Shown here: one piece after another, positions 20,068-51,785 of the stretch
Position numbering within the stretch: position 1 is the first letter of the stretch
Layout: every line of letters starts with the position of its first letter
Assembly: GCA_021234155.1 (NCBI GenBank)
Contig: JAJEKV010000002.1
Span: 774,295 to 838,294, forward strand
Length of the DNA stretch: 64,000 nucleotides
Reading direction: 5' to 3'
From: Isoetes taiwanensis
Taxonomy: Eukaryota > Streptophyta > Lycopodiopsida > Isoetales > Isoetaceae
Program-made: the position numbers and the translations under genes
The notes under the pieces: generated by a model
The model's database searches: none
The model's input: the letters and a program-made list of their open reading frames with translations, nothing else
What the model was told of the DNA's origin: nothing

Positions 20068-20700
20068 AGGAGGACTTATTGAGACCGATGTCCCCTGGAC
20101 AAATGATGGAGGTCATGGACTTATGATGGATCCTCAATACCTCCGGAGGATGCATTTGAAATTGTCATGCACGACAAAGGAAGCGGGGTATGAAGCGATG
20201 AAAGATGTCAAATTTGAAGCCGCGAGCTCTTCAAACACCGCTTCTCAATTCATAGAACGAGCCGTCGAAGTCCTCTTTCAAAATAACAAAACCAAATTTG
20301 TTGTCGAACGGGACAAAAGAGAGGTATTTATCTGGTTTCATTTTCTATTTCTTCTTGAATCTGATGTTTCTTTTATGCAGGAGTTATTTATTGATGACTT
20401 CTGTGCAAGGCATCAGAGAGTCACCCTAGGTAGGGACGCCAGTATTGCACATTATATGGGCTACCTTCACAAGGGGGAAATTATTGTGTTTCACAATAAA
20501 TATAGTCCATCCGAGTATGTGAGGAGGTCCTCAAGCTTAAGGGCTCATTAGTCGCGGCAACCATGTGCCCCTAGCCTCAAACTATGATCGAGTGGTAGCA
20601 GTAGATAGGGCTATCGCAATGTATGTCTTCGGGGGCTTCAAAATGTACTCTGTCCTTGCAAATAAACACACTGACCCCAATTTTTGGTCCACAGTTGTTT
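20068..20700 (+). pseudogene. Hypothetical coding fragment, copy 1 (frameshifted)
   Basis: Visible protein blocks are FEAASSSNTASQFIERAVEV, VVERDKRE, ELFIDDFCARH, VTLGRDASIAHYMGYLHKGE and IIVFHNKYSPS. The frame then breaks, and the GNHVPLASNYDRVVAVDRA block follows in another frame. Between KRE and ELFIDD lies a 57-bp piece with GT (20324) and a pyrimidine-rich TTTTATGCAG end (20380). It could be a very short intron, though it is also open in frame. I do not recognise the family. The equivalent region of copy 2 keeps the 3' half open. Confidence 0.45.
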
Positions 20701-23700
20701 TTTAGTTGTACGGAAGTGTTGTTTTATGTAAAAAACAATAGCAAAATGGCCCCAAAGTCCACGTGGCCCGTTTATCCGGATTTGCACAAAGAGACAGTGG
20801 TTTTTTGGTAAAAATTTCCCACGGTGGTTTTGGCACCTTTTTGTTTTTGGTCAACGTGTCCTCTCTTTCACTTTGTTGTTTTTTAGCGATTTTTGTCAAC
20901 GTGTGTTTTTTTCTTGACTATTGTTTTGGAGGAGCCAATCGTTGTTTGTCTTCTAAATAACACATCTAGATTTGAATATTCTTACATGTGGAAAACTAAA
21001 AGCACAAGTTGTTTTTCCTTTTTCTATCGTTGTTTTTTTTTTCTCTACTTGCGTTTTTAAGTTGACATTATTTTCCCTAAAAACATACATAATTTTTCAA
21101 GAAATCCACATGAAAAACTAAATTACAACGCGTGAAGAATTAAATTACAATGCTATAAATGAAAGTGTGTAAAAAAAAAAAAGAACACGTAGAAAATAAA
21201 AAGCGGCGTTGAGAAGTGTTGTTTTTATCAACAAAAGACACGTTGTTTCAAGTGTTATTTTGCAAAAAAAATAAATAAAACTACCTATGGCCTTTTTTCA
21301 ATTTACTAACAATACATAGTTTTTTTTAAATTAATTAAAAACAATAGTGGTTAAAAAATAAACCACATTCTAAAAGTCAATATATTAAATATTTTTGTTT
21401 CTCATATAACTTCAATATCATTGAATTCTTGATTGCTCATATTTATTTTAGAAAAGCCTTTTTGGGAATCGAACCACTCAAGGCCATAAAAGGCATTGTA
21501 AGTTGCAATCCAAATTTTGACTCAGTTTCACTGGTTTAACTTAGGCAAAAACATTTAAAGTTCAAAACATTTTAAGATTATTTTCGGGGGAACCAAGGTT
21601 TCCCTTAAGGTTCAAAACATCAACTTAAATTGATTTCAAAAGTTTTAAAACATTAAATCAAGTGGAATATCACTTTAACATCAATTTGATTTGCAACTGC
21701 TTTCAATTAGCCGTGGTATTGACCCCGACTTTTGTGCTGGTCGGCTTCCTTGAATGCTCGATCTCGAGCTATTCCTTCCACTAAAATATGTTGTGCTATC
21801 CAAATATATGCAAGCCATACCCGAATGCCCTGATCATTCATTGTGGAATCTTAGTTCTCCAAGAAAATTTTGGCTTCAAAATGAAAAGGACAAGGCACAT
21901 AAGACAAAAAGTGAAATAAAGAACAAGAAAACAAAAATAGTATTACACGAGAATAATAGCTAGAAGCTAAGGTTGCAGCCATGGGGAGTCTGCGGCGGGC
22001 AAGGTTGCATCGAATCAGCAGGCTACGCCTAGAAATAGCCCGTCTAGCCCAGGGAAATGCAAAATGAGCACCTTAGCATTCCATATCCGAGTTTCAAAGG
22101 CATGCAGATCGGCTGGCATTTCTGCCATAAAGGATATCCACCATAGCCAATCCGCCAGCATTTTCAAGTAAAATAAAATCCAGGGAGCTTCTGCATTGGA
22201 CATAAGAGGCACCAAATCACACGATCATATGTAAACAAATACAGAATCAAACAGACAAAAAACTTCCTTACTTTCTTACAATCGTATGTCTGGTTTAGCA
22301 ACATGATCCTCCTCGCTGCGGTGCGCCCCAATGAAGATTAAAGCCAAGCATAATAAAACTTCAGCGAGCCAATTTTAGGCTGGATCTAAATATCGAAAAG
22401 AAACTCATCGAGCCATACTAGGTCGGGAGGCGACTTCATGAAGTGAATAGCGGCCAGATGGCGCTTTGCCCTTCTTACCGGATACATGCATCATTTCCGA
22501 GCTAGGTTTTGCGTAAAACCTAAGAGCTCCCACAAACAAGCGAATAAAGATCTTGATTGTCGCAAGGGATTGCCCGGATTTTGCTAAGCAAATGGAAAAG
22601 ATGGACATGAACGGACCCGGATGCATAGTCTAAATGCAAAGGCCGAATCTGATTGGAAGATCCGCCTGAGGTGCCTAAATGTTGTTATTTCAAATCCCAT
22701 CCCGCGCTAAATATGGCCTCGTGCATATCATCTCAGGGAGATATGCCGGTTCTGAATTAAACAAGCATGCCGGATTTACTTGATGGAACCCGAAAACATG
22801 TTGGAAGACGGATCAGTATGTTCGCTTGGGCATCTAGAGCGGTGTCCGATTCATCTTTATTTTTGTAAACAATCAAAGCTTGCCATCGCCATAGCGGCTC
22901 GGCCGGATTTTTGAGCAAAGGAAAAGATAGGCGGCCATCACCATAGCCGCCTATTGAGTAGGAGCATGCATGCAAACTAGGGGTGAGGGGAAAAAAAGAA
23001 TAGCGGCCATCGCCATAGCCACCCATTGCATAAGGCGGGAAAGAAAACGGTGACCGGCTGGGCCCGATTAATGGCAAACCAATAGGATGATAGGGCCTAG
23101 ATCGCAATCTAGGCCGTTCATCTCGCCCCATCACGACCGTTAAATAGGATGCTTTCTTTATTGCTTTTCATCGAAAATATACAATATAGGTTTATTATTT
23201 TTTGTAATCAAGCCAATGCTAGACTTAAGTGTGACGGTTAAATTGCAAAGCTAGACATGTAATCAAGCCAAAGCTAGACTATGCAAATCGTCCATCCAGC
23301 TTTGCAATTTAACCGTCCCGCATGCCAAATTGTCAGTTCTCGTTCTGTCCAAGAAATCAAGATTTCGGATTCTGACCGACACGATTTTCCTCAACCGGAA
23401 TTTATAGGTCTTTGTAGGTCTTTATGAAAGTGAAGAAAAATAGGGTCTGTGCTATGGAATGTGTGCTCTGAAGATTTTGAATGTTTACGGCCACCGTCGT
23501 TGCATGATCCAGTTAACTCATGCATCATATTTTTTTCTCGAGACAGACCTGGTGTGGAAGTAGACAATCATTAGTCGTTTTGAACAGGATCTTGCATAGT
23601 ATCATCACTTAGAGAGACGCCAGAAGACGGACCCTTAACACCTTTTGGAAAGTAGTTTGTCTCAAATGTCCTCTCCATATGATCCTGGCAACGAATGGGC

Positions 23701-23750
23701 ATCTCCCGCAATCCATAAATTGGCTCTTCTAATAGACTCAGAACATCAAC
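20701..23750. other. AT-rich non-coding part of the duplicated segment
   Basis: Poly(T)-rich DNA with many short TGTTTTTT runs, no conserved frame, and then a more GC-rich stretch from about 22000. Around 22870-23060 three degenerate copies of a GGCCATCGCCATAGCCGCC motif occur. The final 520 bp (23228-23750) form the border of the minisatellite and recur at 47.25-47.80 kb and 55.67-56.18 kb. Confidence 0.6.
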
Positions 23751-25165
23751 TTAGGTGGCATGTTGGAGCCTAGGTGGCATGTTTGAGCCACCTTGGCATG
23801 TTGGAGCCTTGGTGGTATGTTGGAGCCTAGGTGGCATGTTGGAGCCTAGGTGGCATGCTTGAGCCTAGGTGGCATGTTGGAGCCTGCGTGGCATGTTTGA
23901 GGCACCTTGGCATCTTAGGTGGCATGTTGGAGCCTAGGTGGCATGTTGGAGCCCTTGTGGCATGTTTGAGCCACCTTGGAATGTTTGAGCCAACTAGTTG
24001 GCATGTTGGAACCCATGTGGCATATGCATGTTTGGGCCACCTTGGCACGTTGGAGCCTAGGTGGCATGTTGGAGCCCACGTGGCATGTTTGAGCCACCTT
24101 GGCATATTTGGGCCTAGGTGGCATGTTGGAGCCTAGGTGGCAAGTTGGAGACTATGTGGCATGTTGGAGCCTAGATGGCATGTTCGAGACTATGTGACAT
24201 GTTGGAGACTAGGTGGCATGTTTTAGCCACCATGGCATGTTTTAGCCTAGGTGGCATGTTGGAGCCCACAGGCATGTTTGAGCATGTTGGAACCTAGGTG
24301 GCATATTTGAGCCACCTTGGCATGTTTTAGCCTAGGTGGCATGTTGGAGCCTCTGGCGGCATGTTTGAGCCACCTTGGCATGTCTGAGCCTAGGTGGCAT
24401 GTTGGAGCCTAGGTGGCATGTTGGAGCCTAGGTGTCATGTTGGAGCCTAGGTGGCATGTTGGAGCTCGCGTGACATGTTTGAGCCAACTAGGTGGCATTT
24501 TGGAACCCACGTGGCATGTTTGGGCCACCTTGGCACGTTGGAGCCTAGGTGGCATGTTGGAGCCCACGTGGCATGTTTGAGCCACCTTGGCATATTTGGG
24601 CCTAAATGGCATGTTGGTGCCTAGGTGGCACGTTGGAGCCTAGTTGGCATGTTGGAGCCTACGTGGCATGTTGGAGCATAGGTGGCATATTTGAGCCACC
24701 TTGGCACGCTTGGGCCTAGGTGGCACGTTGGAGCCACCTTGGCATGTTGGAGCTCACGTGGCATGTTGGAGGCATGTTAGAGCCTAGGTGGCATGCTAGG
24801 TGGCATGTTGGAGCCTACGTGGTATGTTGGAGCGTAGGTGGCATGTTGGAGCCTACGCGGCATGTTGGAGCCTAGGTGGCATGTTTGAGCCACCTTGGCA
24901 CGCTTGAGCCTAGGTGGCATGTTGGAGCCCAGGTGGCACGTTGGAGCCAAGGTGGCATGCTAGAGCTCACGAGGCATGTTGGAGCCTAGTTGGCATGTTG
25001 GAGCCTACGTGGCATGTTGGAGCCTACGTGGCATGTTGGAGCCTAGGTGGCATATTTGAGCCACCTTGGCACGCTTGAGCCTATGTGGCACGTTGGAGCC
25101 ACCTTGGCATGTTGGAGCTCACGTGGCATGTTGGAGCTCACGTGGCATGTTGGAGCCCAGGTGGC
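23751..25165. repeat. 19-bp minisatellite, block A left part
   Basis: Tandem 19-bp units of three main kinds: GGCATGTTGGAGCCTAGGT, GGCATGTTGGAGCCCACGT and GGCATGTTTGAGCCACCTT. The array continues at 30146 after the copia insertion, so it was about 1.9 kb before the insertion. Long frames on both strands here are products of the repeat. Confidence 0.9.
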
Positions 25166-25497
25166 TGTCAAGGTTGCACCAAGAAAGGGAGAGAAGGGGA
25201 TGCACACCAATATCCGAGAGCGCAAGCTCCCAAAACAAAGGCAAATAGGAATTGTATTAATCGTAAGTATGAATACAAGATATAAAAAGGCGATAATAAT
25301 CGCGCTCCAAGTTACCAACCACACATAATTATGCCGTGAACTAATTAAGGCAAGTCGGGTGCCGTGAAGCTAATTAAGGCAAGTGGGTGGGCTGGTGTAG
25401 GTGCCGATGAAGTGCCGATTCAAGATATAGACAAGAGTCTTTGTCGTGTCTTGCCGTCAAGCGACAAGATGGTGATCTCGATATCATATATCTCGAC
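25166..25497 (-). repeat. Copia 3' LTR (left copy)
   Basis: About 331 bp matching 29798-30145. On the plus strand it begins TGTCAAGGTTGCACC and ends ATATCATATATCTCGAC. The terminal CA seen in the other copy is replaced at the junction with the interior. The minus-strand interior next to it is purine-rich (AAGGAGGAGG), as expected of a polypurine tract. Confidence 0.9.
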
Positions 25498-26209
25498 CTC
25501 CTCCTTGATGAGAGAGGTCACCATCTCCATGCTCAACCTCCTCCTCCACGGAGATGAGATCTGGAATCTATCAAGACCAATACCAAGTCGATGTCGCTCA
25601 AAGAGCTCACGAGCCAAAGGCTTAGTCAAGAGATCCGGTATTGTCCCGATGTAGGAACATGCTCAATAACGAACCCGCTTATCAGCCACAAGGTCCTTTA
25701 CAAAATGATAATGCTTGGGAACATGCTTAGATTTTGGATGTCGAACTTCACCGAGCACCAATCAATGCCACCTTTGTTATCCATGAGCATCCTTGCTGGT
25801 CCAGAGTGCATTGCCCAATGCCGGCAAGAAAGTCCTTGAAACTAATGATCTCACACCTGCCGTAGATGCCGCAACATACCGCTTCGAGTGGATGAAAGAG
25901 ATACATGCCCTTGTTTCTTGCTGATCCAAGCAATGGCAGCATTGGAAAGCGAAAACAAATGGGATGTGGACTGGAGTTGTCTATCACATCGCTAAGTGAG
26001 GAATCACTATATGTCAAGAATGAAAAAGCATCACTATTGCCGCGATATGTAAGGCCATAGTCACAGGTACCCTTTAAGTAGCGGAGAATGTGCTTGGCCA
26101 TTTCCCAATGCTTATGACCTGGATCCGCTGAAAATTGGCGAAAAGAGCTATAATAAAGCAAATGCAATATCAGGTCTGGTGCAAACCATGCAACACATGA
26201 GGCTGCCAA
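25498..26209 (-). pseudogene. Copia RNase H region, frameshifted
   Basis: Blocks on the minus strand are HWEMAKHILRYLKGTCDYGL and FLTYSDSSLSD (the conserved copia RNase H start with its Asp). A broken middle follows, then HVPTSGQ and finally TKPLARELFERHRLGIG near 25575-25625, the usual C-terminal end of copia polyproteins. At least three frame changes separate the blocks. It follows directly after the open RT frame ending at 26210. Confidence 0.8.
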
Positions 26210-28440: not shown

Positions 28441-28586
28441 TTAATAGCACGAAAGCAAGGCTCTTTCCCCGTAACTTTGTCTGCGAACAATGCGTCGCCA
28501 CTATCAAAGATGACTTTTGTGCCCATATCGAGAAGGCGCAACAGAAATTAGATCTTTACGCAAAGTAGGAGCATACATTACCCCTT

Positions 28587-29797: not shown

Positions 29798-30145
29798 TGT
29801 CAAGGTTGCACCAAGAAAGGGAGAGAAGGGGATGCACACCAATATCCGAGAGCGCAAGCTCCCAAAACAAAGGCAAATAGGAATTGTATTAATCGTAAGT
29901 ATGAATACAAGATATAAAAAGGGGCAGTAGATAATAACTGCTCCCGTTACCAACCACACATAATTATGCCGTAACTAATTAAGGCAAGTCGATTGCGTGA
30001 GCTAATTAAGGCAAGTGGGTGGGCTGGTGTAGGTGCCTGATGAAGTGCTGATTCAAGACATAGTCAAGACCTCTCAGGCTTTGAGTCTTTGTCCGAGTCT
30101 TTGCCAAGCAGCAAGATGGTGATCTCGATATCATATATCTCGACA
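29798..30145 (-). repeat. Copia 5' LTR (right copy)
   Basis: 348 bp with TG...CA termini on the plus strand (TGTCAAGG...CTCGACA). It matches 25166-25497 except for about 15 small differences, several being indels at CTG or CAG. Confidence 0.92.
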
Positions 30146-30639
30146 GTGGCATGTTGGAGCCTAGGTGGCATGCTAGGTGGCATGTTGGAGCCCGCGTGGC
30201 ATGTTGGAGCGTGGGTGGCATGTTGGAGCCTAGGTGGCATGTTTGAGCCACCTTGGCACGCTTGAGCCTAGGTGGCATGTTGGAGCCACCTTGGCATGCT
30301 GGGGCCCAGGTGGCATGTTGGAGGTGGTGGCACGTTGGAGCCTAGGTGGCATGCTAGAGCTCGCGAGGCATGTTGGAGCCTAGTTGGCGCGTTGGAGCCC
30401 ACTGTGGCATGTTGAAGCCACCTTGGCATGTTGGAGCCTAGGGGTGGCATATTTGAGCCACCTTGGCATGCTTGAGCCTAGGTGGCGCGTTGGAGCCAAC
30501 TTGGCATGTTGGAGCTCACGTGGCATGTTGGAGCCCGGTGGCATGTTGGAGCCTAGGTGGCATGCTAGGTGGCATGTTGGAGCCAGTGTGGCATGTTGGA
30601 GCCTAGGTGGCATGTTATAGCCTAGGTGGCGGAACCCGT
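30146..30639. repeat. 19-bp minisatellite, block A right part
   Basis: Continuation of the array interrupted by the copia element. It starts at the second target-duplication copy GTGGC and ends at TATAGCCTAGGTGGC, just before AACCCGTGAGAC, the same border as at 49626 in copy 2. Confidence 0.9.
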
Positions 30640-33543
30640 GAGACGGACATCACAAAGGTTACCGAGTATGGGCTTTCCTACGGTGCTCCTCAGGGAGGGC
30701 AAATGCAGTGCCTCCCTTAAAACCCAGTTATCCAGGCCATTGAATTCTCCATTCAAGTAACTTGCGCCGGCGCAGCAAAAAAAAATTCAAGATCCGGTAG
30801 GAGAACATATCAAACCGCCAAAGTGTCCCTGATGCCGAGTGTAGAAACCCAAGTGTTTTGTCGTTTCGGGCAAGCATAAAGACTCGGGAATGGAGATTTG
30901 ACTTAGCCTTTTGTTGCCAAACAGCGAAATTACCTAGGGGCCCAAGTTACACGGTCATTTTTGCAGCAAAGAACCACGAACCCTCTACATGGCGGTGATT
31001 CTCGCGACCTCCGCTAAGGCCAATTCACTACGAGCGTGTTGGGCGTGAGCTACTTTGGCTTTAGGGGCAGGGGTGGTCTTCGCCCGCTAAACTTGGTCTC
31101 GGGGTAATGTCAACGTTTGAGTTCGTTGGCGAGTCGGATCACAGCGAGGGGTGGGAGAATTGCCCGCCCTGCGTGGCCGGGGACCCTCTAGAGAGGACCT
31201 TTGGGTCGAAGGCCCTCGAAGGTTTTAGGGCTCCGTCTTTGTGCATCAACGCCTCCCACTACCTCTTGACATTGGTGCAAGATCCTGGTCCAATCTAGCT
31301 AGGGTATGGCCTCCAAAACGCGAAACCCCGTGGCCTTGCCGGGTTATTGTAGGGTTTACGTTATGGAGGTCAAACGTGGTCGGATTGCACTTGGGACCTG
31401 GTGTACCTTTTTCGAACATGCATGCGAGCCATGGCAACCGAAATAATGAGACTTTGGATCTATTGGTGATCCCAATCATTCCAAAAAATTTGCTACTACA
31501 AAATGTGTTCTTGACTTCTAATTGCGACCTTTGGGAGGAGGATAAATCCAAACCCCATTTCAGGGGTTTCTATTGCTTCTTGTTTTCAAGCTGCGGCTTC
31601 TCGACCATGTCTAGGGGGTGCAACCGAATAAAACTCGACCTCCATAACGTAAACCCTACAATAACCTAGCATTGCACAGGGGTTTATGTTTTGGAGGCCA
31701 TACCCTAAGCTTGATTGGACCAGGATCTTGCACAATGTCATGAGGTAGTGGGAGGGCATTGGCCTTGAAGAAAGGCGAGTCCTAAAACCTTCCGAAGAAG
31801 AAGTTCGACCCAAAGGTCCTCTGGAGGGTCCTCGCCACTGACGGGCAACTATCCCATCCCGAATCGCGGATCGACCCGCCAACGGACTCCAAACATCGAC
31901 ATTACCACGGAGACCAAGTTTCGTGGGCGTAAGACCATCCCCGCTCCCTAAGCGCCAAAGTAGCTCATGTCCAACATGTTCGTAGTGAATTGTCCTTAGC
32001 GGAGGGTGCGTAAGTCCGCCATGTAGAGGGTTAGTGTGTTTCTTTATTTTTGCAAAAATGACCGTGTAACTTGGTCCCTAGGGTAATTTATTTGTTTGGA
32101 CGACATGGCGGTTAAATCTCCATTTTGAACCTTTATGTACCGACAAAACAAAACTTGGGTTTCTACACGATCGATTGCGGGACACTTTTGCGGTTTGATA
32201 TGTTCTCCGTCTGGATCTTGAATTTTTTGAGATTGCTCGAAGCAAGTTACTTGAATGGAGAATTCAACTGGCCGGATAGGGAAACGGGACTTTCGGGAAG
32301 GGAGGCCGCGGCATTTGCCCTCCTGAGGAGCACGGTAGGAAAGCCTTGCCTCGTAAAATCAAACCCCATTTAAAACGGTTTCTATTGCTTCTTGTTTTCA
32401 AGCTGCGACTTCTCGACCATGTCTCAGGTGCAAGCCCGAATAAAACTTCGAGCTCCATAACGTAAACCTTACAATAAACCTAGCAACGCAAAGGGTTTAC
32501 GTTTTGGAGGCCATACCCCAGCCGATTGGACCAGGATCTTGCACAATGTCATGAGGTAGTGGGGGGCGTTGGCGCTAAGAGAAAGGCGAGCCCTAAAACC
32601 TTCCGTAGCGATTCGACCTAAAGGTCCTCTGGAGGGTCCCTCGCCCGCGGAGGCGGGCAACTCTCTCATCCGGGAATTGATCTTACTGCGCCTAAAGCGG
32701 ACTCGAAACATCGGCATTACCTTGGAGACCAAGTTTGGTGGTGTAAGACCACCCCGCCTCAGGAGGCCAAAGTAGCTCATGTCCAACATGTTAAGTAGTG
32801 AATCGCCCTAGTGGAGGTGCGCACATCGCCATGTAGAGGGTTCGTGTTTCTTTGCGGCAAAAATGACCGTGTAACTTGGTCCTAGGGTAATTTCGCTATT
32901 TGGGGACGACATGGCTAAGTCAAATCTCCATTAGAGCCTTTGTCTTTGCCCGAACGACAAAACACTTGGGTTTCTACACGATTCATTGCGGAGGACACTT
33001 TGCGGTTTGATATGTTCTCCCGGACAGATCTTGAATTTTTTTGAGCCTGCTCGAAGCAAGTTACTTGAATCATTCAAAGCAGGTTTCCCTATCCGGCCGT
33101 TGAATTCTCCATTATGGAGAATTCAACTGCCGGATAGGGAAACCGGTTCCGGAAGGGAGGCATTGGCATTTGCCTTCGGGAGGAGCACCGGTAGAAAAGC
33201 CGCCTCGGTAAATCCAAACCCCATTTCACGGGTTTCTATTGCTTCTTGTTTTCTACTGCAGCTTCTCGACCATGTCTCAAGTGCAACTGAATAAAACTCA
33301 ACCTCCATAACGTAAACCCTACAATAACCTAGCAACGCACAGGGTTTATGTTTTGAAGGCCAAAACGTGGTCGACTTCTTTGATAACTAGGTGGACCATT
33401 TCTAAACATGCATGGGGAGCCATGAGAACTGAAATAACAGAGTTTCGATCTGGTCGCCAATCCGAGTGACCCCAAACAATTTTGCTACTGCATAAGGCGC
33501 TCTACACTAGGAGGAGAATAAATCAAAATCCCATTCTTGCACA
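30640..33543. repeat. R' inverted-repeat region, copy 1
   Basis: Arms of about 640 bp (30735-31375 and 31635-32273) are reverse complements separated by about 260 bp. For example, TTGTAGGGTTTACGTTATGG near 31344 pairs with CCATAACGTAAACCCTACAA near 31645. A further direct copy follows at about 32280-33340. R' is a divergent relative of the R units (shared GTTTGATATGTTCTCC, GGCAACT, GACCAAGTTT and AACATG blocks in the same order). No frame is conserved among copies. Confidence 0.75.
33082..33144. repeat. Long local hairpin in R'
   Basis: GGTTTCCCTATCCGGC and GTTGAATTCTCCA are followed after TTA by their complements, giving a stem of about 30 bp with one mismatch and a 3-nt loop. It looks like a head-to-head junction of two R' ends. 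Confidence 0.8.
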
Positions 33544-35975: not shown

Positions 35976-36040
35976 TGATTGGGACCTGAGATCATGTGCA
36001 TATGCTCAAAAAATGGATTTGAGGCATAAAAAAGCAAAAC

Positions 36041-36043
36041 ACA

Positions 36044-36098
<55 letters not shown>
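36041..36098. repeat. CT microsatellite
   Basis: An AC start followed by about 27 CT dinucleotides. It lies in the unique spacer between minisatellite block C and segmental copy 2. Confidence 0.95.
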
Positions 36099-36102
<4 letters not shown>

Positions 36103-36237
36103 CGGACGGGTGCTAGGGTTTTCGCCGTGGAACTTTAAAGCCATATCTCTCACATAATGATGTCGATTACCTTGGGGTTGGTCTCGTTGGAAAGCTTATT
36201 CCGAGCTCTTTCCAACGGTGAATAACATCGAAGGACT

Positions 36238-38778: not shown

Positions 38779-39189
38779 CACTACAAAAATTAAAGCCCCA
38801 TTACGTATCGCCTATTACGGCGTCCGGGCGTCGCTTAGGCGTCGATGATCGACGTCAAAACGTCGATAAACGACGCCTATTTCGGCGTCGGGCGCCGATA
38901 AACGACCTTTATGCGTCGCTATACGGCGCCGCAATCGCGCTGGCTTTAAAGCGGACGACGGCGTCGTTCAACGACGCCATCGCGACGTGGCTTACGCCGC
39001 CGGTACGGGCGGCGGCGTGGCGAAGCCAGTTTTGCCGACGTGGCGACCACGTGTTTGACGTCGTTTAACGACGCCACGCAAACGCGGCGACTTGGCCGCC
39101 GGCCGGCCGGCGCAAATGGCGTTACCCGACGTTGGTTTGATTTGGCAACCCGCTTAACGACGTCGTTTACGGCGTTGCTATTAATTTTT

Positions 39190-40330
39190 TTTTTTTTTTA
39201 ATTTTTTTTTTTTTATAAATTTAAAAAAATACACATTTATTATGAATGAATTTAATAAATTTAATTTAAAGAATATAAAATTAATTTAACAAATAAAAAA
39301 ATATAAGATTTTAACGTCATTAAATGATGTCGCTTAAATATATTAAAAAAATACAAAAATAAATGAAGCCCCAATTTTTTTAGCTAAATACATTAATCAA
39401 TAAATTAAGCTAAATACATTAATCAATACATTAAACATATTGAAAATTAAATGCTTACCCGGCATTAAGAAGTAAAGTTGTTTTGCACAAACAACGCATT
39501 TGCTAGGAGTGTACATGCAAAACAATAAATTCAATGATTAGTAAAATATTAGTATAAATAAACAACTTAAAGAAAAAAAATATGGAAAATCAATGGGGAG
39601 GGTGGTTTCAATGACGCCCCTTCTTGGATAACAATTTAACCTAAATAAAGCATTAGTATTTTATTAGCGTATTGAAAAAAAATTAAATCCTTACACGGAA
39701 GAGGTGCCAACTTGTTTTGTAAGAACAACACATTTTGCTAGGAGTGTACATGCAAAACAAAAAATTCAATGATTAGAAAGAAATAGTATAAAACAACTAA
39801 TAAGGAAAAATTTTGGAAAGAAGAAGGGTCTGTCTTTTAACGACGCCTTCTTTAGATGGGAAAAAAATTAGAAGAAGAATGGAAGAATTCAAGAAGAAAA
39901 GGCTAAGAAGAAGAGGAGGAACCCGAAAATAGGGGAGGAAGAATCTGTAAGAAGATGAAGCGCAAGAGGAGGATTAAGAGTAAGAATTTGAATAAGAGGA
40001 GGAAGAAGTAGTATAGAGGAGGAAGAATCAAGAAGAAGATGACAAAGGGAATGGAAGAATATGTATGGAAGAAGGATGCAAGAATGGAAGAAGAAGAATG
40101 AAGGTTGAAGGAAGAACAAACAACAAATACAAAAAAGCCCTAAATCTACCCAAAAACAAGTTTAGATTCAAAAAAAACGAGTTGGTTGATCCGTGCACAT
40201 ACCTTAAGAAGCTTGTCTTACACTTAGAATAGACCCCAAAGTAGATCCTACCGAAAATCGCCTCAAAAACGCTCCTCCATAAGCTTTGCTTGCTCGAAAA
40301 TAATAAGCGCGGGATTGCCGCCGTTTTCGA
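39190..40330. other. AT-rich and purine-rich interior of the CACTA element
   Basis: Contains T and A runs, a near-duplicate pair around TTTGCTAGGAGTGTACATGCAA (39455-39620 and 39690-39850), and a GAAGAAGAGGAGG-rich purine tract (39860-40110). No transposase motif is present. Confidence 0.6.
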
Positions 40331-40797
40331 TTTAAATCACAAAGTCGTCGTTTAACGACGTCGTGGACGACGTTTAACGACGCTTTTTTCTGACGACCGG
40401 AAAAAAAAAAAAAAAAGTATAGAATGCATGTACACTTGATACATGGGTTTATTTAACCGGATAGGGTTTATTTGACTTGCTACACCGATTAAAGTTATGA
40501 AATATACCACCATGAAAATGTTCAATGTTTTGTGGTACATCCGTTGAGCTATGAGGTATATAATATGATGATGATAACTAGTAATACCTTACCGCACGAC
40601 GATAACTAATACCTTACCAACATGCAAAGATGTAGTTTATCTTAAAATTTTATTTTGTTAGATTTAAAAGGTTAGGTTTCCACCAATAGTACATATATAT
40701 ATATATATATTTATTTTTTTAATTTTGTCCCCTGCTATGAGAACTAATACCCTACCAACATGCGAAGATGTAGTTTATCTCAACAAGCTAGCTGACT

Positions 40798-43700
40798 TAG
40801 GAAGCTAGCTGACAAAAAATCAGAATTTAAGTCCGTACTATGCATTAATTACTTAATTTACGTGCAAAAGCGGGCCTTGACTTCTAACCGCCACAACGGA
40901 GGAGTACAGGTCCAAACTCCATTCCTCCGGGGCCCGCTTGCTTCGTTCTCAACTGCATGTGATTGGCCACGTCCCAAGTGCAAAAGACCAAAACTCGGCA
41001 CCCAAAACGCAAACCCTGCTAGAACCTGGCAACTCATAGGGTTTACGTTTCGGAGGCTCTATGCTTGTCAGATTTGACTAGGACCTTGCGCCGTGTCTTG
41101 AGGTAGAGGGGGGTGTTGGCCTTGAGCACGGACCTAAAAACCACCGGGAAGCAGCTTGCCCCCAAAATTCCTCTCCAAGGCCTCGGGCGGACAGACGCAA
41201 CTTCCCTCTCCGGAACTGATCTGCTCCTCGCCAATGGACTCTTGAACGTCGACATTGCCCTAGGGACCAAGTTTTGTGGCCGAAGCCCACCCCTTCGGAA
41301 GAAGCCAAACTATCTCATGTGCAACACACTCGTAGTCAATTGGCCTAGTAGGTGGTCTGGCGAATCTTTAATGTAATGTAAGTGTTTCTCTCTTTTGCAA
41401 AACCGAGTGTAACTTGGTCCCTAGGGTAATTTTGGCATTCCGGACGATGTGGCGAAGTCGGATCGGCATTTGAAACCTCCGCAATGTCCGGAACGACAAA
41501 ACACTTTGGTTTCTACTAATCGTCGCCTTCAGACGCCAGGGGTTTGATATGTTCTCCGGACGGATGTTGGATTTTTGGACCTTCTCGGACCAGGTTCCCG
41601 GAACAAAGGATTCAACGGGTCGGATCACGGAACCGAGATCCGGAGTGTGGTCTTTAGCGTCGCCCGGCGGGCGTTTGCGCCAGAAAGACCTCGGGAAGCT
41701 TTTGGGGCTCGCCTCCCGGGTTGGACTCCCCCCTCTAATAAGGAGGCCTTGCGGTCCTGGCCTTGTTTGACTTGGGCAAGTGTGCGGCCGGCTGCCCAAC
41801 AACAACAGCCGCCGGACCGTTCTAGTGCAAACTATTTGATCTAAAACATATCCAAAATTTTTGAAAGTTGGCCACGTATGTTGGCGATGACTTAGGAAGC
41901 TAGTGACAAAAATCAGAATTTAAGTCCGTATTTCTATGCATTAATTACGAATTTCTGAATGTCTTGCTACCACAAAAGCGGCCCTTGACTTCTAACCGCC
42001 TGGGCGGGAGGAGTACAGGTCCAAACTCCATTCCGTCGGGCTTGCTTGCAGCGTTCTCAAGCGCATGTGATCGGCCACGTCCCAAGTGCAAAAGACCAAA
42101 ACTTCGGCACCCAAAATGCAAACCCCGCTAGAACCTCGCAACTCATAGGGTTTACGTTTGGAGGCTCTATCCTTGTCGATTTTGACTAGGACCCATGCCG
42201 TGTCTTGAGGTAGAGGGGGGCTGTTTGACGCCGAGCACGGACCCTAAAAACCACCCGGAAGGCTTTTGCCCCAAATTCCTCTCGAAGGCCCCGGCGACGG
42301 ACGGGCAACTTCCCTCTCCCGAACCAAGTGATCTGTCTCGCCAATGGACTCGAACGTCGACATTGCCCTAGGGACCAAGTTTTGTGGCCAGAAGCCCACC
42401 CCTTCTCGAAGAAGCCAAACTATCTCATGTGCAACACACCTCGTAGTCAATTGGCCTAGGAGGTGGGGTCAAGGAATCTTGCGAATGTAGGGCGTAAAGT
42501 GTTTCTTTCTTTTGCAAAACCGACCGTGTAACTTGGTCCCTAGGGTAATTTTGCATTCGGACGATGTATGCTAAGTCGGATCACGGCGACCCGAATGTCC
42601 GAACGACAAAACACTTTGGTTTCTACACTCGTCGCCTGAGACGCCAGCGGTTTGATATGTTCTCCCGGACGGATGTTGGATTTTTTGGACCTTCTCGGAC
42701 CAGGTTCCCGGAACAAAGGATTCAATGGTCGGATACGGAAGAAGAGATCCGAAGTGTGGTCTTTAGCGTACACCCCGGGCGAGGCCGCCAGAAAGGCCTC
42801 GGGGAAGCTTTTTTTTGGGGCTCGCCTCTGGGGGTTCGGACTCTCCTCTAATGAGGAGGCCTTGCAAGGTCCTCCGACTTGTTTGACTTGGGCAAAGTGT
42901 CTTGGCTCCAAAAAAACAACAAAGCCGCCTGTTGTTCTAATGCAAACTATTTGATCTAAACCTTATCCAAAAATTTTTGAAAGTTGGCTCAGATGTTGGC
43001 GATGACTTACGAAGCTAGTGACAAAAAATCAAAATTTTTGTCCGTACTATGCATTAATTAGGAATTTCTGAATGTCTTGTTATCGCAAAAGCGCCCTTGA
43101 CTTCTAACCGCCACAACGGAGGAGTACAGGTCCAAACTCCATTCCGCCGGGTTCCCCTTGCTAGCGCTTCAAGCGCATGTGATCGCCACGTCCCTGTGCA
43201 AAAGACCAAAACTTCGGCACCCAAAACGCAAACCCCCGCTAGAACCCGGCAACTCATAGGGTTTACGTTTGGGGAGGCTCTATCCTTGTCGATTTGACTA
43301 GGACCTTGCGCCGCGGTCTTGAGGTAGAGGGCGGGTGTTGGACGCCAATGAAGCGTGGACCCTAAAACCACCCGGAAAGCAGCCTTTGCCCCAAAATTCC
43401 TCTCCCGAAGGCCACGGCGACGGACGGGCAACTTCCCTCCCGGGAACCGCGGATCCGCCTCGCCAATGGATGTTTAACGCCGACATTGCCCTAGGGACCA
43501 AGTTTTGTGGCCAGAAGCCCACCCCCTTCCTCGAACAAGAAGCGATGCCAAACTATCTCATGTGCAAACACACCTCGTAATCAATTGGCCTAGGAGGTGG
43601 TGGTCCAATATCGCAATGTAGGCCCAAAGTGTGTCGCGTTTTTTGCAAACCGATCCGTGTAACTTAGTCCATAGGGTAATTTTGGCATTCCAAACGATAA

Positions 43701-46030
43701 GTGACGCCAGATTAATTTTTTTTAAGCTTCGTTTTTTTTTTCCCAAAAAAAAAAAAAAAAAAAGTGACGTCGTTAAACGACGTTGTTTACGCGGGCGCTC
43801 AGATTCGACAATAGCGTGGCGCGGACGATGTCGGCCACGCCGGGCGTAAACCGCCGCCACGCCGATATTCTAGGCGTTTTAACGACGCCACGCCGACGAT
43901 GGCAGGGACACTTTGGCGTGCCGGCTGGCATGTCGACAAGCCCGGGGTCACGCGTCAGATTTTTAGTCGCCATTCAACGACGCCATGTCGACGCGGCGTA
44001 ACGACGGTGGCGTGCCACTGGCATGTCGCCAGGCTTACCGCTGGCCGGATGTGCCACGCCGGATCCACGAGACGGCGTTAAACGACGTTTGTGCATCGCG
44101 GCACGACACGCACGCCTTACCCGGGTAGCAGCGCATTTCATGCCACGCGATGCCAATCCCCACATCGATACCTTTCGAAACGCCGTTGAACGACGCCGCT
44201 GATCTAAACCATATCCAAAATTTTTGAAAGTTGGCCTGTATGTTGGCGATGACTTAGGAAGCTAGTCGACAAAAAATCAGAATTTAAGTCCGTACTATGC
44301 ATTAATTACGAATTTATTTAATGTCTTCTCTTGCAAAAGCGGCCCTTGACTTCTAACTGCCACAACGGGAGGAGTAAAGGTCCAAACTCCATTCCGCTGG
44401 GCCTGCTTTGCTTCTTCAATCGCATGTGATCGGCCACGCCCCAGTGCAAAAGACCAAAACTTCGGCACCCAAAATGCAAACCCCGCTAGAACCTCGGCAA
44501 CTCATAGGGGTTTACGTTTCGAGGCTCTATCCTTGTCCGGTTGACTAGGACCTTTGCGCCGTGTCTTGAGGTAGAGGGGGCTGTTGACGCCAGAGCACGG
44601 ACCCTAAAACCACCGAAGTAGCTTGCCCCAAAATTCCTCTCCCCGGGCTTCGGCGGCCGGACGGCAACTTCCCTCTCAGAACAGTGGATCCGCCTCTGCC
44701 AATGGACTCGGAACGCCGACATTGCCCTAGGGACCAAGTTTTGTGGCCGTAAGCCCACCCCTTCTCGAAAGAAGCCAAACCATCTCATGTGCAACACACT
44801 AAGAGTCAATTGGCCTAGGAGGTGGTCATTTGAACCTGAAATGTAGGGCGTAAGTGTTTCTTTCTTTTGCAAAACCACCGTAACTTGGTCCCTAGGGTAA
44901 TTTTGGCATTCCGGACGATGTATTAAGTCGGATCGGCATTTGAACCTCCGCAATGTCCGAACGACAAAACACTTTGGTTTCTACTAACCGCCGCCCGCAG
45001 ACGCTGCCATGCGGTTTGATATGTTCTCGGGGCGGATGTTGGATTTTTTGGACCTTCTGGACCAGGTTTACGGAACAAAGGATTCAATGGTCGAATCGAA
45101 CCAGATTCTCGGAAGTGTGGTCTTTAGCGACACCCCCCCGGGTAGCCATTTGCAGAAAGGCTGCCTCGGGAAGCTTTTTGGGCTCGCCTCCCGGGTTCTG
45201 GACTCTCCCCTCTAAAGGAGGCCTTGCAAGTCCCCGACCTTTGTTTGACTTGGGCAAGTGTGCGGCTCGGCTGCTAACAAAGTGCCGGTTGACTGTTGTA
45301 GTGCAAACTATTTGATCTAAACCTTATTCAAAATTTTTGAAAGTTGGCACGTATGTTGGCGATGACTTACGAAGCTAAATGACAAAAAAATCAGAATTTA
45401 AGTCCGCACTATGCATTAATTACGAATTTATTTAATGTCTTGCTACCGCAAAAGCGGCCCTTGACTTCTAACCGCCCATAACGGGAGGAGTATTGGTCCA
45501 AACTCCATTCCGTCGGGCTCGCTTTGCTTGGCGTTCTCAACCGCATGTGATCGCCACGTCCCAAAGTGCAAAAGACCAAAACTTCGGCACCCAAAATGCA
45601 AACCCCGCTAGAACCTCGGGCAACTCATAGGGTTTACGCTTCGAGGCTCTATCCTTGTCGATTTAACTAGGACCTTGCGCCGGTGTCTTGAGGTAGAGGG
45701 GGCTGTTGACGCCCAGAGCAGGGACCCTAAAAAACCACCCGGGCGGCTTGCCCCAAAATTCCTCTCCGGCCTTCCGGGCGACGACGGGCAACTTCCCCTC
45801 TCCTGGGAACCGTGGATCGTCTCGCCAATGGACTCTGAACGCCGACATTGCCCTAGGGACCAAGTTTTGTGGCCGTAAGCCCACCCCTTTCGAAGAAGCC
45901 AAAACTATCTCATGTGCAAATACACTCATTAGTCAATTGGCCTAGGAGGTGGTCTTGAACATCAACGAATGTAGGATGAATGGATTTTTTGCAAACCCTA
46001 CCGTGTAATCCTTAGTCCATAGGGTAATTT
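40798..46030 (+). repeat. Tandem array of R units inside the CACTA element
   Basis: The marker (C/A)TAGGGTAATTTTG recurs at about 41421, 42540, 43671, 44892 and 46019. Complete units are therefore 1.12-1.13 kb, and the longer 1.22-kb step includes a CGACG-rich cassette. Each unit contains GACTTCTAACCGCC, AAACTCCATTCCG, AGGGTTTACGTTT, GCCAATGGACTC and TTTGATATGTTCTCC in the same order. The same unit occurs singly at 7.9-8.9 kb. Confidence 0.85.
43761..44198. repeat. Internal copy of the CACTA right subterminal region
   Basis: AAAGTGACGTCGTTAAACGA through CGCCGTTGAACGACGCCG matches 46103-46534. The last ~109 bp including the terminal TTGTAGTG are missing. The element therefore contains [R units + subterminal cassette] twice in tandem. 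Confidence 0.8.
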
Positions 46031-46643
46031 TGGCATTCCAAGCGATAAGCGGCGCCGCCAGATTTTTTTTTTCATGACGTTTTTTTTTTTTCCAAAAAAA
46101 AAAAAGTGACGTCGTTAAACGACGTTGCTTACGTGGCGCTCCGTTTTAATAGCGTGGCGCTGACGATGCCGCCACGCCGGCTTCTTTGCCGCCACGCCGA
46201 TATTCTAGGCGTTCGCTTAACGACGTCATCGCCGACGCGGCGGTGACACTTTGGCGTGCGGCCCGCATGTCGGCAGCCAAAAGCCTGACCGGGTCACGTC
46301 GTTTTTAGTAGCCGTTCAACGATGTCATAATGTCGACGTGGCGAAACACGATGGCGTGCCCGACCGCATGTCGCCAGTTTCCGCTTGGCCGGATGTGCCA
46401 CGCCGATCCATGAGACGACGTTAAACGACGCTTTGTGCACGTGGCACGACGACTTGCCGCCTTTGGCAGCGGCAGTACATGCCACGATGCCAATCCGACA
46501 CGCCGCCCCCGAGAAACGCCGTTGAACGACGCCGAACGACGTTGTCGCCGTTGAACGACGATGTCGCCGATATTCGACGACGAATTCCGTCGTTTTTCGA
46601 CGTCGCGCTGGACGCCGTTGGACGTCGACTATGCCTTGTAGTG

Positions 46644-47800
46644 GAAAAGATGGACATGAACGACCGGATGCATAGTCTCCAAATGCGCGTCGATAGTGGA
46701 AGATCTGGCCGAGGTTTAAATGTTGTTATTTCAAATCCCATCCCGCTAGGGGAATATGGCTGTATATCATCTACGTGAGATATGCGCCGGTTACGTAATA
46801 AACAAGCATGCCGGATTTACTTGATGGAACCCGAAAACATGTTGGAAGATCTGACCAGATATGTTCGCTGGGCATCTAGAGCAAAGGTCCGATTCATCTT
46901 TATTTTGTAAACAATCAAAGCTTGCCATCGCCATAGTCGTCACGGATTTGCCGAGCAAAGGGAAAAGATAGGCGCCATCACCATAGCCGCTTATTGAGTA
47001 GGAGCACCGTGCAAAACCAGTATGAAAGAAAACGTGATAGCCGGCCATCGCCATAGCCACCCATTGCATAAGCGGAAAGAAAACACGAAATCGGGTCGCT
47101 GGCTAATGGCAAACCAATAGGATGATAGGCCTAGATCGCAATCTAGGCCGCTCATCTCTAAGCCCCATCACGACAATTAAATAGGATGCTTTCTTTATTG
47201 CTTTTCATCTAAAAAAATATACAATATAGGTTTATTATTTTTGTAATCAAGCCAATGCTAGACTTAAGTGTGACTGTTAAATTGCAAAGCTAGACATGTA
47301 ATCAAGCCAAAGCTAGACTATGCAAATCGCCCATCCAGCCTTTGCAATTTAACCGCCCCACATGCCAAATTGTCGGTTTTCTCGTTCATCCCACTTAAAT
47401 CAAGATTTCGGATTTCGACCGCATTACACGATTTTCCTCAACCGGAATTTATAGGTCTTTGTAGGTCTTTATGAAAGTGAAGAAAAATAGGGTCCGCGGC
47501 TATGGAATGTGTGCTCAAGATTTTGAATGTTTATGGCCACCGCCGTTGTAATGATCCAGCTTAACTCATGCATCATATTTTTTTTCTCGAGATGCACTGG
47601 TGTGGAAGTAGACAATCATTAGTCGCTTTGGAACGTGATCTTGCATAGTATCATCACTTAGAGAGAGACTTTAAGATCGGACCCTTAACACCTTTTGAAA
47701 GTAGTTTGTCTCAAATGTCCCTCCATATGATCCCCGCAAACTTAATGGGCATCTCCCGCAATCCATAAATTGGCTCTTCTAATAGACTCGTAACATCAAC
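46644..47800. other. Duplicated segment copy 2, satellite border
   Basis: Counterpart of about 22585-23750, including the 520-bp border block before the minisatellite. Non-coding. Confidence 0.7.
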
Positions 47801-49626
47801 TTAGGTGGCATGTTGGAGCCTAGGGTGGCATGTTTGAGCCACCTTGGCATGTTGGAGCCTTGGTGGTATGTTGGAGCCTAGGTGGCATGTTGGAGCCTAG
47901 GTGGCATGCTTCTGAGCCTAGGTGGCATGTTGGAGCCCTCATGGGCATGTTTGAGGCACCTTGGCATCTTAGGTGGCATGTTGGAGCCTAGGTGGCATGT
48001 TGGAGCCCTCAGGCATGTTTGAGCCACCTTGAATGTTGGAGCCAACTAGTTGGCATGTTGGAACCCATGTGGCATATGCATGTTTGGGCCACCTTGGCAC
48101 GTTGGAGCCTAGGTGGCATGTTGGAGCCCACGCAGATGTTTGAGCCACCTTGGCATATTTGGGCCTAGGTGGCATGTTGGAGCCTAGGTGGCACGTTGGA
48201 GACCATGTGGCATGTTGGAGCCTAGATGGCATGTTCGGAGACTATGTGACATGTTGGAGACTAGGTGGCATGTTTTAGCCACCATGGCATGTTTTAGCCT
48301 AGGTGGCATGTTGGAGCCCACGTGCATGTTTGAGCATGTTGGAACCTAGGGGTAGATATTTGAGCCACCTTGGCATGTTTTAGCCTAGGTGGCATGTTGG
48401 AGCCTCAAGGGGTAAGATGTTTGAGCCACCTTGGCATGTCCGAGCCTAGGTGGCATGTTGGAGCCTAGGTGGCATGTTGGAGCCTAGGTGTCATGTTGGA
48501 GCCTAGGTGGCATGTTGGAGGTGGCACCGGGATATGTTTGAGCCAACTAGGGTGGCATTTTGGAACCCACGCATAAGTTTTGGGCCACCTTGGCACGCTG
48601 GAGCCTAGGTGGCATGTTGGAGCCCACGTAGGCATGTTTGAGCCACCTTGGCATATTTGGGCCTAAATGGCATGTTGGAGCCTAGGTGGCACGCTGGAGC
48701 CTAGTTGGCATGTTGAGCCCACGTGGCATGTTGGAGCATAGGTGGCATATTTGAGCCACCTTGGCACTTTGGGCCTAGGTGGCACACGGAGCCACCTTGG
48801 CATGTTGGAGCCACGGTGGTTGGAGGCATGTTAGAGCCCAGGTGGCATGCCAGGTGGCATGTTGAGAGCGGTATGCTAGTAGGTGGCATGTTGGAGCTTA
48901 CGCGCACGTTGGAGCCTAGGGTGCCAGTTGAGCTACCTTGGCACGCTGAGCCTAGGTGGCATGTTGAGTTCGTGTGGCACGCTGGAGCCCAGGTGGCATG
49001 CTAGAGCTCACGAGGCATGTTGGAGCCTAGCTGGCATGTTGGAGCCTACGTGGCATGTTGGAGCCTAGGTGGCATATTTGAGCCACCTTGGCACGCTTTG
49101 AGCCTATGTGGCACGCTGGAGCCACCTTGGCATGTTGGAGCTCACGCGGGCATGTTGGAGCCCACGTGGCATGTTGGAGCCCGTGGCATGTTGGAGCCTA
49201 GGTGGCATGTTGGAGCCCACGCGGCATGCTGGAGCCGTGAGGTGGCATGTTGGAGCCTAGGTGGTGATGTTTGAGCCACCTTGGCACGCTTTTGAGCCTA
49301 GGTGGCATGTTGGAGCCACCTGGCATGTTGGAGCCGAGGTGGCATGTTGGAGCCCAGGTGGCACGCTGGAGCCCAGGTGGCATGCTAGAGCTCACGCAGG
49401 CATGTTGGAGCCTAGTTGGCACGCTGGAGCCTACGCAGAGATGTTGAAGCCACCTTGGCATGTTGGAGCCTAGGTGGCATATTTGAGCCACCTTGGCATG
49501 CTTGAGCCTAGGTGGCACGCTGGAGCCAACTTGGCATGTTGGAGCTCACGGCATGTTGGAGCCCGTGGCATGTTGGAGCCTGTGTGGCATGTTGGAGCCT
49601 AGGTGGCATGTTATAGCCTAGGTGGC
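47801..49626. repeat. 19-bp minisatellite, block B
   Basis: Same order of variant units as block A without the copia element. Many units are irregular (losses or insertions of 1-5 bases such as CACGCAGATG), often where block A has CTG or CAG. Confidence 0.9.
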
Positions 49627-51785
49627 CGTAACCCGTGAGACTGACATCACAAAGGTTACCGAGGCAAAGCTTTCCTACAAGCAGCCTCCCGGAGGGCAAA
49701 TGCTGCCTCCCTTCCTAAAACCCGGTTTCCATATCCCACCATTGAATTTTCCATTCAAGTAACTTTGCCGAGCAGCTCAAAAATTCAAGATCCGTCCGGA
49801 GAACATATCAAACCGCAAAGTGTCCCGCAATGACCCGTAGAAACCCAAGTGTTTTGTTGTTCGGGCAAAGACAAAGACGAATGGGAGATTTGACTTCGCC
49901 TTTGTTGTCCAAACAAATAAATTACCCTAGAGCCCAAGTTACACCTGGCCATTTTTAAAAAGAAAAGAAACACTAACCCTCTACATGTAAGATTCTCGCA
50001 CCCTCCGCTAAGGCCAATTCACTACTTAACGTGTTGGATGTGAGCTACTTTGGCGCCTCGAGCCGGGCGCGGGTCTTCAGCCTGAAACTTGGTCTCAGGG
50101 TAATGCCAACGTTTCGAAGTTCGTTGGGTGAGTCGCATCACGCCCGGTGGGAGAATTGCCCGGCCGCGCCGTGTGTGGGACCCTAGAGAGGACCTTTGGG
50201 TCGAATCGCTCGGAAGGTTTTAGGCTCCGCCTTCGGGCATCAACACCCTCCCACTACCTCATGACATTGGTGCAAGATCCTGGTCCAATCTAGTTAGGTA
50301 TGGCCTCCAAAACGCAAACCCTCGCCTTGCCGTGTTATTGTAGGGTTTACGCTATGGAGGCCAAAACGGGTCGGGCTGCACTTGGGACCCGTGTACCTTT
50401 TTCGAACATGCATGCGGAGCCATGGCAACCGAAATAATGTACTTTGGATCTATTGGCGGGCATCCCGAATCATTCCAAAAAAATTTGCTACTACAAAATG
50501 TGTTCTTGACTTCTAATTGTGATTAATCGGGAGGAGGATAAATCCAAACCCCATTTCGCCGCTTATTGCTTCTTGTTTTCAATCGCAGCCTTCTCGACCA
50601 TGTCTCGTGTGTAATCGAAAAAACTCGACCTCCATAACGTAAAACCCTACAATAACCTAGCATTGCACGTGGTTTATGTTTTGGGAGGCCATACCCCAGC
50701 CGATTGGACCGTGGATCTTGCACAATGTCATGAGGTAGTGGGAGGGCATTGACGCTTTAAGATCGAGTCCTAAAACCTTCCGAAGAAGTTCGACCCAAAG
50801 GTCCTCTCTCGAGGGTCCTCGCCACGGACGGGCAACTATCCCACCCCCGAACTCTGATCCGACTCGCCAACGGACTCCAAACATCGACATTACCCCTCGA
50901 GACCAAGTTTCGTGGGCGAAGACCATCCCCGCCTCCCCTAAGCCAAAGTAGCTCATGTCCAACATGTTCAGAGTGAATTATCCTTAGAGGAGGGTGCGAT
51001 CATCGCCATGTAGAGGGTTCGTGTTTCTTTTCGCTGCAAAAATGACCGTAACTTGGTCCCTAGGGTAATTTCGTTGTTTGGAATATGACATGGCTAAGTC
51101 AAATCTCCATTTCTGAGCCTTTTGTACCGTCCGAACGACAAAAACACTTGGGTTTCTACACTGGCCGACCGCAGACACTTTGGCGTTTGATATGTTCTCC
51201 GCATTGATCTTGAATTTTTGAGATTGCTCGAAGCAAGTTACTTGAATGGAGAATTCAACGGTCTGGATAGGGAAACCGGGCCCGGAAGGGAGGCACTGCA
51301 TTTGCCTCCCGAGAGGAGCACTGTAGGAAAGCTGCCTCGGTAAATCCAAACCCCATTTCGCCGGGTTTTATTGCTTCTTGTTTTCAACCGCAGCTTTCGA
51401 CCATGTCTCAGGGTGCAATCAATAAAACTCGACCTCCATAACGTAAACCCTACTAACAACCTAGCAACGAAAGGGTTTACGCTTTGGAGGCCACCCCAGC
51501 CGATTGGACCGTGATCTTGCACAATGTCATGAGGTAGTGGGAGGGCGTTGACTTTAAGACTTAAGACGAGCCCTAAAAACCTTCCGTAAGGCCGACCCAA
51601 AGGTCCTCTCCGGAGGTCCCCGCCACGGACGGGCAACTCTCTCATCCCGGAATCTGTGATCTTACCGCCAACGGACTAAAACATCGGCATTACCCCTGAG
51701 ACCAAGTTTGTTGGGCAGAAGACCACGCCCCTGAAGCGCCAAAGTAGCTCTTCACGCCCAACACGCTCAGAGTGAATTGGCCAAC
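49627..51785. repeat. R' inverted-repeat region, copy 2
   Basis: Same palindromic arrangement as 30640-32820. TTGAATTTTCCATTCAAGTAA at about 49743 pairs with its complement at about 51236, centred near 50500. Confidence 0.75.

Follow-up and report, generated by a model that had tools for sequence, protein, structure and literature searches.

Whether the differences between repeat copies in a plant genome assembly record the history of the DNA or the way in which it was read is the question raised by the window analyzed here, a stretch of 64,000 nucleotides of the Isoetes taiwanensis genome (assembly GCA_021234155.1, contig JAJEKV010000002.1). The initial annotation of this window had noticed that such differences sit on CAG or CTG, and had attributed them to base-calling errors at cytosines methylated in the CHG context (H being A, C, or T). 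The comparisons described below, made within the window and across the genome, indicate that the discordances are very probably for the most part nanopore consensus errors at CHG-methylated and some CG-methylated sites, left in place where polishing failed.

Repeat pairs were taken from a self-comparison of the window, which gave four pairs, A, B, C, and D. The copies that are referred to by position are the following:

20069..22597, + strand, segment copy A1, the first 599 bp of which are a high-copy repeat with 18 of 26 CAG/CTG damaged
36239..38778, + strand, segment copy A2, with 16 of the 26 CAG/CTG of the 599-bp repeat damaged
30146..32803, + strand, repeat copy C1, non-satellite part from 30640
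49166..51777, + strand, repeat copy C2, non-satellite part from 49640
25166..25497, + strand, long terminal repeat (LTR, as named in the initial annotation, putatively copia) copy 1, aligned with copy 2
29798..30144, + strand, LTR copy 2 (likewise so named), aligned with copy 1

A trinucleotide was counted as disrupted when it was not reproduced in the aligned copy, in both directions and with strands merged; CWG stands here for CAG/CTG, and GWC for the words of equal composition used as comparison. Over the four pairs, CAG/CTG is the top trinucleotide, disrupted in 172 of 228 occurrences against 0.272 for all words, and it ranks first in pairs A, C (53/59), and D and second in pair B (22/30), behind ACG/CGT (30/38). 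The proposed clustering at CAG/CTG is thus borne out by the context table. As the site of the differences, CAG/CTG is indeed the most disrupted word, but the CpG-containing words CGC (229/369), CCG (262/478), CGA (222/450), and ACG (179/367) follow with raised fractions of 0.49–0.62, partly because CpG is a product of the errors. All ten strings that had been quoted as examples were recovered by exact search of the window: between the segment copies, which share 91.8% identity, GCTGGCATTTCTGCC at 22112 faces GGTGGCATTTCGCC at 38289, while between the LTR copies (88.9% identity, 16 mismatches, and 16 gaps) AAGCAGCAAG at 30106 corresponds to AAGCGACAAG at 25459.

The same context dominates in the rest of the assembly, which was searched as 1.66 Gb in 1110 contigs. 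The 599-bp repeat has at least 40 genome matches including the two window copies, with which the other 38 were aligned. In these 40 listed copies, CAG/CTG again ranks first (319/1038 disrupted against 0.092 overall, and against 1881/22,766 for other words, an odds ratio of 4.9), and the difference per base falls from 0.156 inside CWG to 0.052 within 3 bases of it and 0.026 beyond. A second family, queried with the 1 kb at 42001–43000 of the window, behaves similarly, as CAG/CTG ranks first both in its two window copies (49/60) and in 16 others (153/480), taken from the 49 match rows listed. The corresponding feature is:

40793..46534, + strand, copies of a ~1.1-kb repeat that has numerous matches in the genome; in two window copies, 49/60 CAG/CTG are damaged in the 1-kb part tested

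This ~1.1-kb repeat recurs in tandem steps at 40793–46534 of the window and at 9537153–9543736 of another contig (C1030), has at least 49 match rows in the assembly, and gave no Pfam match in three frames of the locus examined (L091). The 599-bp repeat lies inside an open frame of 340 amino acids (L011:576–1598, − strand) that is open at one end of its stretch; in Pfam, this frame gave only a sub-threshold match to PF01995 (16 bits against a curated cut-off of 25). The high-copy repeat is possibly protein-coding.

The distribution of damage along and among copies of the 599-bp repeat was studied as well; for the comparison with other substitutions, 39 copies were used, a partial one (L042) being left out. 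Damaged CAG/CTG per copy range from 0 to 20 of 26; 17 copies with at least nine damaged sites are referred to as heavily hit, and the remaining 22 as lightly hit. Along a copy, damage is nearly all-or-none: a CAG/CTG is damaged in 187 of 197 cases when both of its neighbours are damaged, and in 38 of 545 when both are intact. Among copies with 3–22 damaged sites, adjacent damaged pairs number 231 against 155 ± 5 in 200 margin-preserving shuffles. The block edges are copy-specific; for example, one copy (L025) runs through 14 damaged, 6 intact, and 6 damaged sites, and window copy A1 through 14 damaged, 6 intact, 4 damaged, and 2 intact. The 35 runs of at least three damaged sites span 28–316 bases, with a median of 100. 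Such all-or-none blocks are unlike ordinary mutation, and they are what would be expected of a consensus patched together from polished and unpolished parts.

Blocks could also arise from real mosaicism, that is, from gene conversion in which an old, degenerate subfamily exchanged tracts with young, intact copies, an origin to which both the block structure and the mosaic 5S genes described below would lend themselves. However, no single donor haplotype is apparent: several wrong forms occur at each site, and the identical wrong 5-mer is found in only 618 of 3076 pooled comparisons of two damaged copies. Moreover, substitutions away from CWG are 0.016 per base in damaged blocks versus 0.013 in clean ones, and a donor decayed at 95% of its CWG should be decayed elsewhere too, so that mosaicism is disfavoured and must be considered extremely unlikely.

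The wrong letters themselves set the damaged runs apart from isolated changes. In runs of at least three damaged sites, 156 of 257 changes gain a CpG and 42 are C-to-T or G-to-A, whereas the corresponding counts among 39 isolated changes are 4 and 21; artefact and real decay are therefore separable within one alignment. A CpG is gained in 171 of 352 changed 5-mers at CWG and in 174 of 1206 with no CWG near. CTG is written, for example, as TCG or CCG: the GCTGC of AAGCTGCTA becomes GTCGC in 11 of 15 damaged copies, and the TCTGG of CATCTGGAG becomes TCCGA in 8 of 11. The wrong letters are thus systematic, recurring by context across separate copies. The differences had been described as mostly small indels or scrambles, and the scrambles are confirmed; in the heavily hit copies, however, same-length changes that gain a CpG (108/244) outnumber all gaps (38 with a CpG gain and 35 without).

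Real mutation, in the form of deamination of 5-methylcytosine at CHG and CG, perhaps accompanied by indels from error-prone repair after active demethylation, would strike the same sites; excision by DME/ROS1-type enzymes is an active demethylation route. Deamination does seem to be active in the Isoetes taiwanensis genome, as the transitions among the isolated CWG changes suggest, together with those in 5S genes outside arrays (49 of 67 substitutions; see below). Nevertheless, most of the damage gains CpG instead of losing C to T, the same wrong letters appear in separate copies, and the blocks are all-or-none with copy-specific edges. The initial contention that natural CHG decay is not the source therefore holds. 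Age points the same way: substitutions per 334 sites away from CWG average 3.8 in the heavily hit and 4.6 in the lightly hit copies, damage and other substitutions are uncorrelated (rho −0.22, p 0.18, 39 copies), and damage is independent of the evolutionary age of a copy. Real mutation as the main source is accordingly judged highly improbable.

The suspicion that many frameshifts in the window may be unreal finds support in the same 39 copies: as damage rises, the longest forward frame in the 599-bp repeat becomes shorter (rho −0.64), and a length of at least 180 codons is attained by 8 of the 22 lightly hit copies and by 1 of the 17 that are heavily hit. The 14 lightly hit copies with shorter frames imply real breaks, or residual errors, there too. 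Accurate reads are needed before any frameshift in the damaged stretches is accepted as genuine.

A clean and a damaged state can be seen side by side in the three copies of a satellite border:

22593..23751, + strand, border copy at 23 kb, clean in its 3' part, as judged by the match to the 55.7-kb copy
46642..47801, + strand, border copy at 47 kb, damaged, with 9 of 12 CAG/CTG hit in the part common to the three copies
55673..56181, + strand, third border copy, at 55.7 kb, clean

Over 524 aligned columns, the 23-kb and 55-kb copies are set apart by 2 mismatches and 1 gap. Columns in which one copy alone differs number 66 at 47.3–47.8 kb, 10 of which stem from the start of that copy being cut short, 13 at 55.7 kb, and 0 at 23.2 kb, and the scrambles are confined to the 47-kb copy. 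TTCTGACC at 23370 and 55815 is replaced by TTCGACC at 47414, a common string found at 8 places on the + strand and 4 on the − strand; GGTCTGTGCT at 23444 and 55889 by GGTCCGCGGCT at 47491; and ATCCTGGCAAC at 23682 and 56112 by ATCCCCGCAAAC at 47730. Arrays made up of variants of one 19-bp satellite lie beside or inside the duplicated segments, at 23752–25165, 30146–30630, 33543–35975, and 47802–49626. Two tandem pairs of a 75-bp unit, at 62897–63043 and 63415–63561, have equal score and consensus start and are 518 bases apart, probably as a result of a recent local duplication.

The ratio of CWG to GWC words allows the extent of the damage to be followed along the window. It amounts to 1.01–1.73 in background (four stretches with sequence, the two masked as N among six fetched being left out), to 1.40 in sequence flanking 17 of the 22 copies with light damage, and to 1.26, 1.42, and 1.22 in the clean window pieces at 1–12, 26–29.8, and 62–64 kb, respectively. 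In the 12 pieces between these clean parts, it drops to 0.30–0.83. CpG observed/expected exceeds 0.64 in 10 of the 12 low-index pieces, versus 0.37–0.64 in background, flanks, and clean pieces. The resulting division of the window is:

1..12000, no strand, stretch without damage signature, CWG:GWC 1.26
12001..26000, no strand, damaged stretch, CWG:GWC 0.43–0.83 in its measured pieces, including clean blocks and a satellite array
30000..62000, no strand, damaged stretch, CWG:GWC 0.30–0.76 in its measured pieces, including clean blocks and satellite arrays

Satellite arrays are inherently poor in CWG, and a low index within them is not damage. The clean blocks within the damaged stretches, at 23.2–23.75 and 55.67–56.18 kb, agree with one another. 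The low ratio thus places damage at about 12–26 and 30–62 kb, a span wider than that initially proposed (20068..51785).

Genes for 5S ribosomal RNA (rRNA) are near invariant and provide a yardstick outside these repeats. With the recurrent exact unit as reference form and at least 100 matched bases required per unit, 65 units in two arrays (contigs C13 and C907) include 9 exact copies, 258 gap openings, and 144 of 260 CAG/CTG damaged, and 306 of their 886 substitutions are C-to-T or G-to-A. Many of these array units are mosaic, perfect up to a point and scrambled thereafter, similarly to the repeats of the window, and damaged units stand beside perfect ones, which speaks against real mutation. 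Ten units on four other contigs include 2 exact copies, 1 gap opening, and 5 of 40 CAG/CTG damaged, and transitions of the C-to-T/G-to-A kind make up the 49 of 67 substitutions mentioned above. In a looser set of 88 units from eight stretches, CAG/CTG is disrupted in 186 of 352 cases (0.53) against 0.24 overall, 50 of them being CAG written CG. Two small clusters outside the arrays (L081 on C1103 and L082 on C1041) carry changes that are mostly C-to-T or G-to-A, likely a record of real methylation decay.

As an organelle-derived control, presumed to be unmethylated, two full-length rbcL-like genes were compared (contig C840, 34.6 kb, and contig C1052; loci L108 and L107). Their frames are open over 512 and 490 codons, and they are truly diverged, sharing 89.5% identity over 1454 columns, with 150 mismatches and 2 gaps. 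As a control, the pair argues neither for nor against methylation dependence. This divergence is large for a plastid gene and a recent nuclear insert, and the pair possibly reflects an old transfer or a contaminant contig.

Several observations weigh against nanopore error at methylated sites. In the rbcL-like pair, diverged by about 10%, CWG differs in 21 of 43 cases versus 388 of 1406 for other words (0/5 and 4/7 in two rbcL-like fragments), and real divergence can therefore also be higher at CWG, in favour of real mutation; this fraction is, however, far below the 95% within blocks, and it accompanies a 10% divergence in a coding region with few gaps. Among the 88 units of 5S rRNA, CAG/CTG is surpassed by GCC/GGC (114/176) and by AGA/TCT (50/88), of which the second overlaps a CAG, and takes third place, with TAA/TTA at 87/176, so that 5S damage extends beyond CAG/CTG. 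The genome copies had been chosen, among the matches listed, by likeness to a damaged query, and the damaged runs do contain their 42 of 257 transitions. Gaps lying more than 3 bases from any CAG/CTG, whichever copy is considered, amount to 35/92, 37/57, 95/138, and 113/159 in pairs A, B, C, and D, respectively; this is expected if both copies are damaged but constitutes no proof, and the placement of the indels at CAG/CTG, as first described, fails for these many gaps. Within the damaged blocks, among words that do not overlap a CWG, those with CpG are raised most, in favour of the methylation account, with CCG at 6/9 against 5/56 in clean blocks, CGA at 16/38 against 10/189, ACG at 13/45 against 14/149, and CGC at 1/4 against 0/30, a small sample given the nine CpG of the 599-bp repeat, some of them 2–5 bases from a CWG. 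Nonetheless, several CpG sites are mostly intact within damaged blocks, the increase extends to some words that lack a CpG (ACT/AGT 8/63 versus 4/226 and CAA/TTG 12/173 versus 8/523), and gaps off CWG occur about 3.6 times as often in damaged (15/2453) as in clean blocks (15/8744). Finally, the short-read nature of the polishing has been deduced solely from the length of the 35 runs.

The gaps away from CWG, together with the homopolymer gaps (20 of 92 in pair A), would suit sequencing or assembly error of another kind, such as uncorrected long reads with much noise, miscounted homopolymers, or the collapse of haplotypes, the enrichment at CWG being then a by-product of composition. Such errors would not damage 95% of CWG in blocks in which most other words stay close to their level in clean blocks, no preference for CpG would be expected of them, and GWC, of equal composition, is not similarly depleted. 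This explanation is thus very unlikely. Homopolymer error was in addition considered as the main cause and rejected. Nanopore error at CHG-methylated sites, by comparison, is supported by most of the tests able to contradict it that the letters alone allow, namely context, age, blocks, wrong letters, and the separate occurrence of real C-to-T decay.

In plants, methylation affects cytosines in the CHG and CG contexts, to which CWG and CpG belong, respectively; among CHG sites, CAG/CTG are the most highly methylated, and plant repeats commonly carry CHG methylation. We infer the following course of events. Native plant DNA with 5-methylcytosine at symmetric CHG (chiefly CAG/CTG) and CG sites would have been read by nanopore, and a basecaller little trained on CHG methylation would take the signal of the methylated C as that of a CpG, so that CTG/CAG would be written as TCG, CCG, CGG, CGA, or CG. 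The change from CTG to TCG sets C beside G, as might be expected, in our opinion, of a model that has learned that a methylated C precedes G. With both strands methylated, reads of both would carry the same errors, and a consensus would offer no remedy. Polishing, most likely with short reads, would have corrected the errors where reads could be placed, leaving error-bearing blocks, tens to a few hundred bases long, in the repeats; part of the clean sequence may owe its letters to reads from other copies that overwrote it.

Errors of this kind are already known, and the present case is a clear member by its context, its CpG-gaining letters, its blocks, and the 5S yardstick. In bacteria, Dam and Dcm motifs cause methylation-dependent errors in nanopore basecalling. 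As in methylation-dependent nanopore errors generally, the errors described here lie at a methylated motif, are systematic, and survive consensus since they are common to all reads; unlike in the bacterial case, the motif is the plant-type CHG (CAG/CTG) with some CG, the assembly is nuclear, and the product is mostly a spurious CpG. Natural decay of 5-methylcytosine affects the same CHG and CG sites and is apparently visible in the 5S copies outside arrays; unlike its isolated transitions to TpG or CpA, the Isoetes blocks consist of CpG-gaining scrambles and gaps. Nanopore reads are reported to show an altered pattern of substitutions at methylated bases (PMC8486125). For plants, lower nanopore accuracy with models lacking plant training data is described in the corresponding portions of PMC7501810 and PMC9749173, the latter suggesting plant methylation as a cause of the loss and showing that species-specific models raise accuracy. 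The proposed cause, native methylation absent from training, is the same here; unlike the present work, the portions consulted of these two reports name no sequence context for the errors, and a search for CHG, CTG, and CAG in the main text of PMC9749173 gave no hit. In the open-access literature, as represented by titles and the beginnings of abstracts, nothing was found on CAG/CTG-to-CpG errors in plant nanopore assemblies, which does not prove their absence.

In the copies studied, about a third of CAG/CTG in the two repeat families (319/1038 in 40 copies and 153/480 in 16, the reference form being the majority form) and over half in the 65 units of the two 5S arrays (144/260) depart from the reference form, and most of these off-reference CAG/CTG look as though they lie in error-like blocks. 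Pseudogene calls, LTR insertion dates, satellite divergence, CpG content, and 5S ribosomal DNA variation would be wrong if derived from such stretches. A test that requires no reads is offered by the CWG:GWC ratio combined with CpG excess and runs of damaged CWG, for which 5S rRNA serves as a natural yardstick. More tentatively, and with some doubt on our part, the letters of the assembly could carry an imprint of the methylome, some 95% of CAG/CTG being miswritten in unpolished blocks, mostly as CpG words. If this were true, the CWG:GWC ratio and the spurious CpG of the FASTA file alone would map both polishing failure and the CHG methylation of the sequenced tissue, and the same ratio would flag other public plant assemblies. 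For the Isoetes stretch itself, broken genes and repeat ages are not to be trusted until they have been checked with accurate reads.

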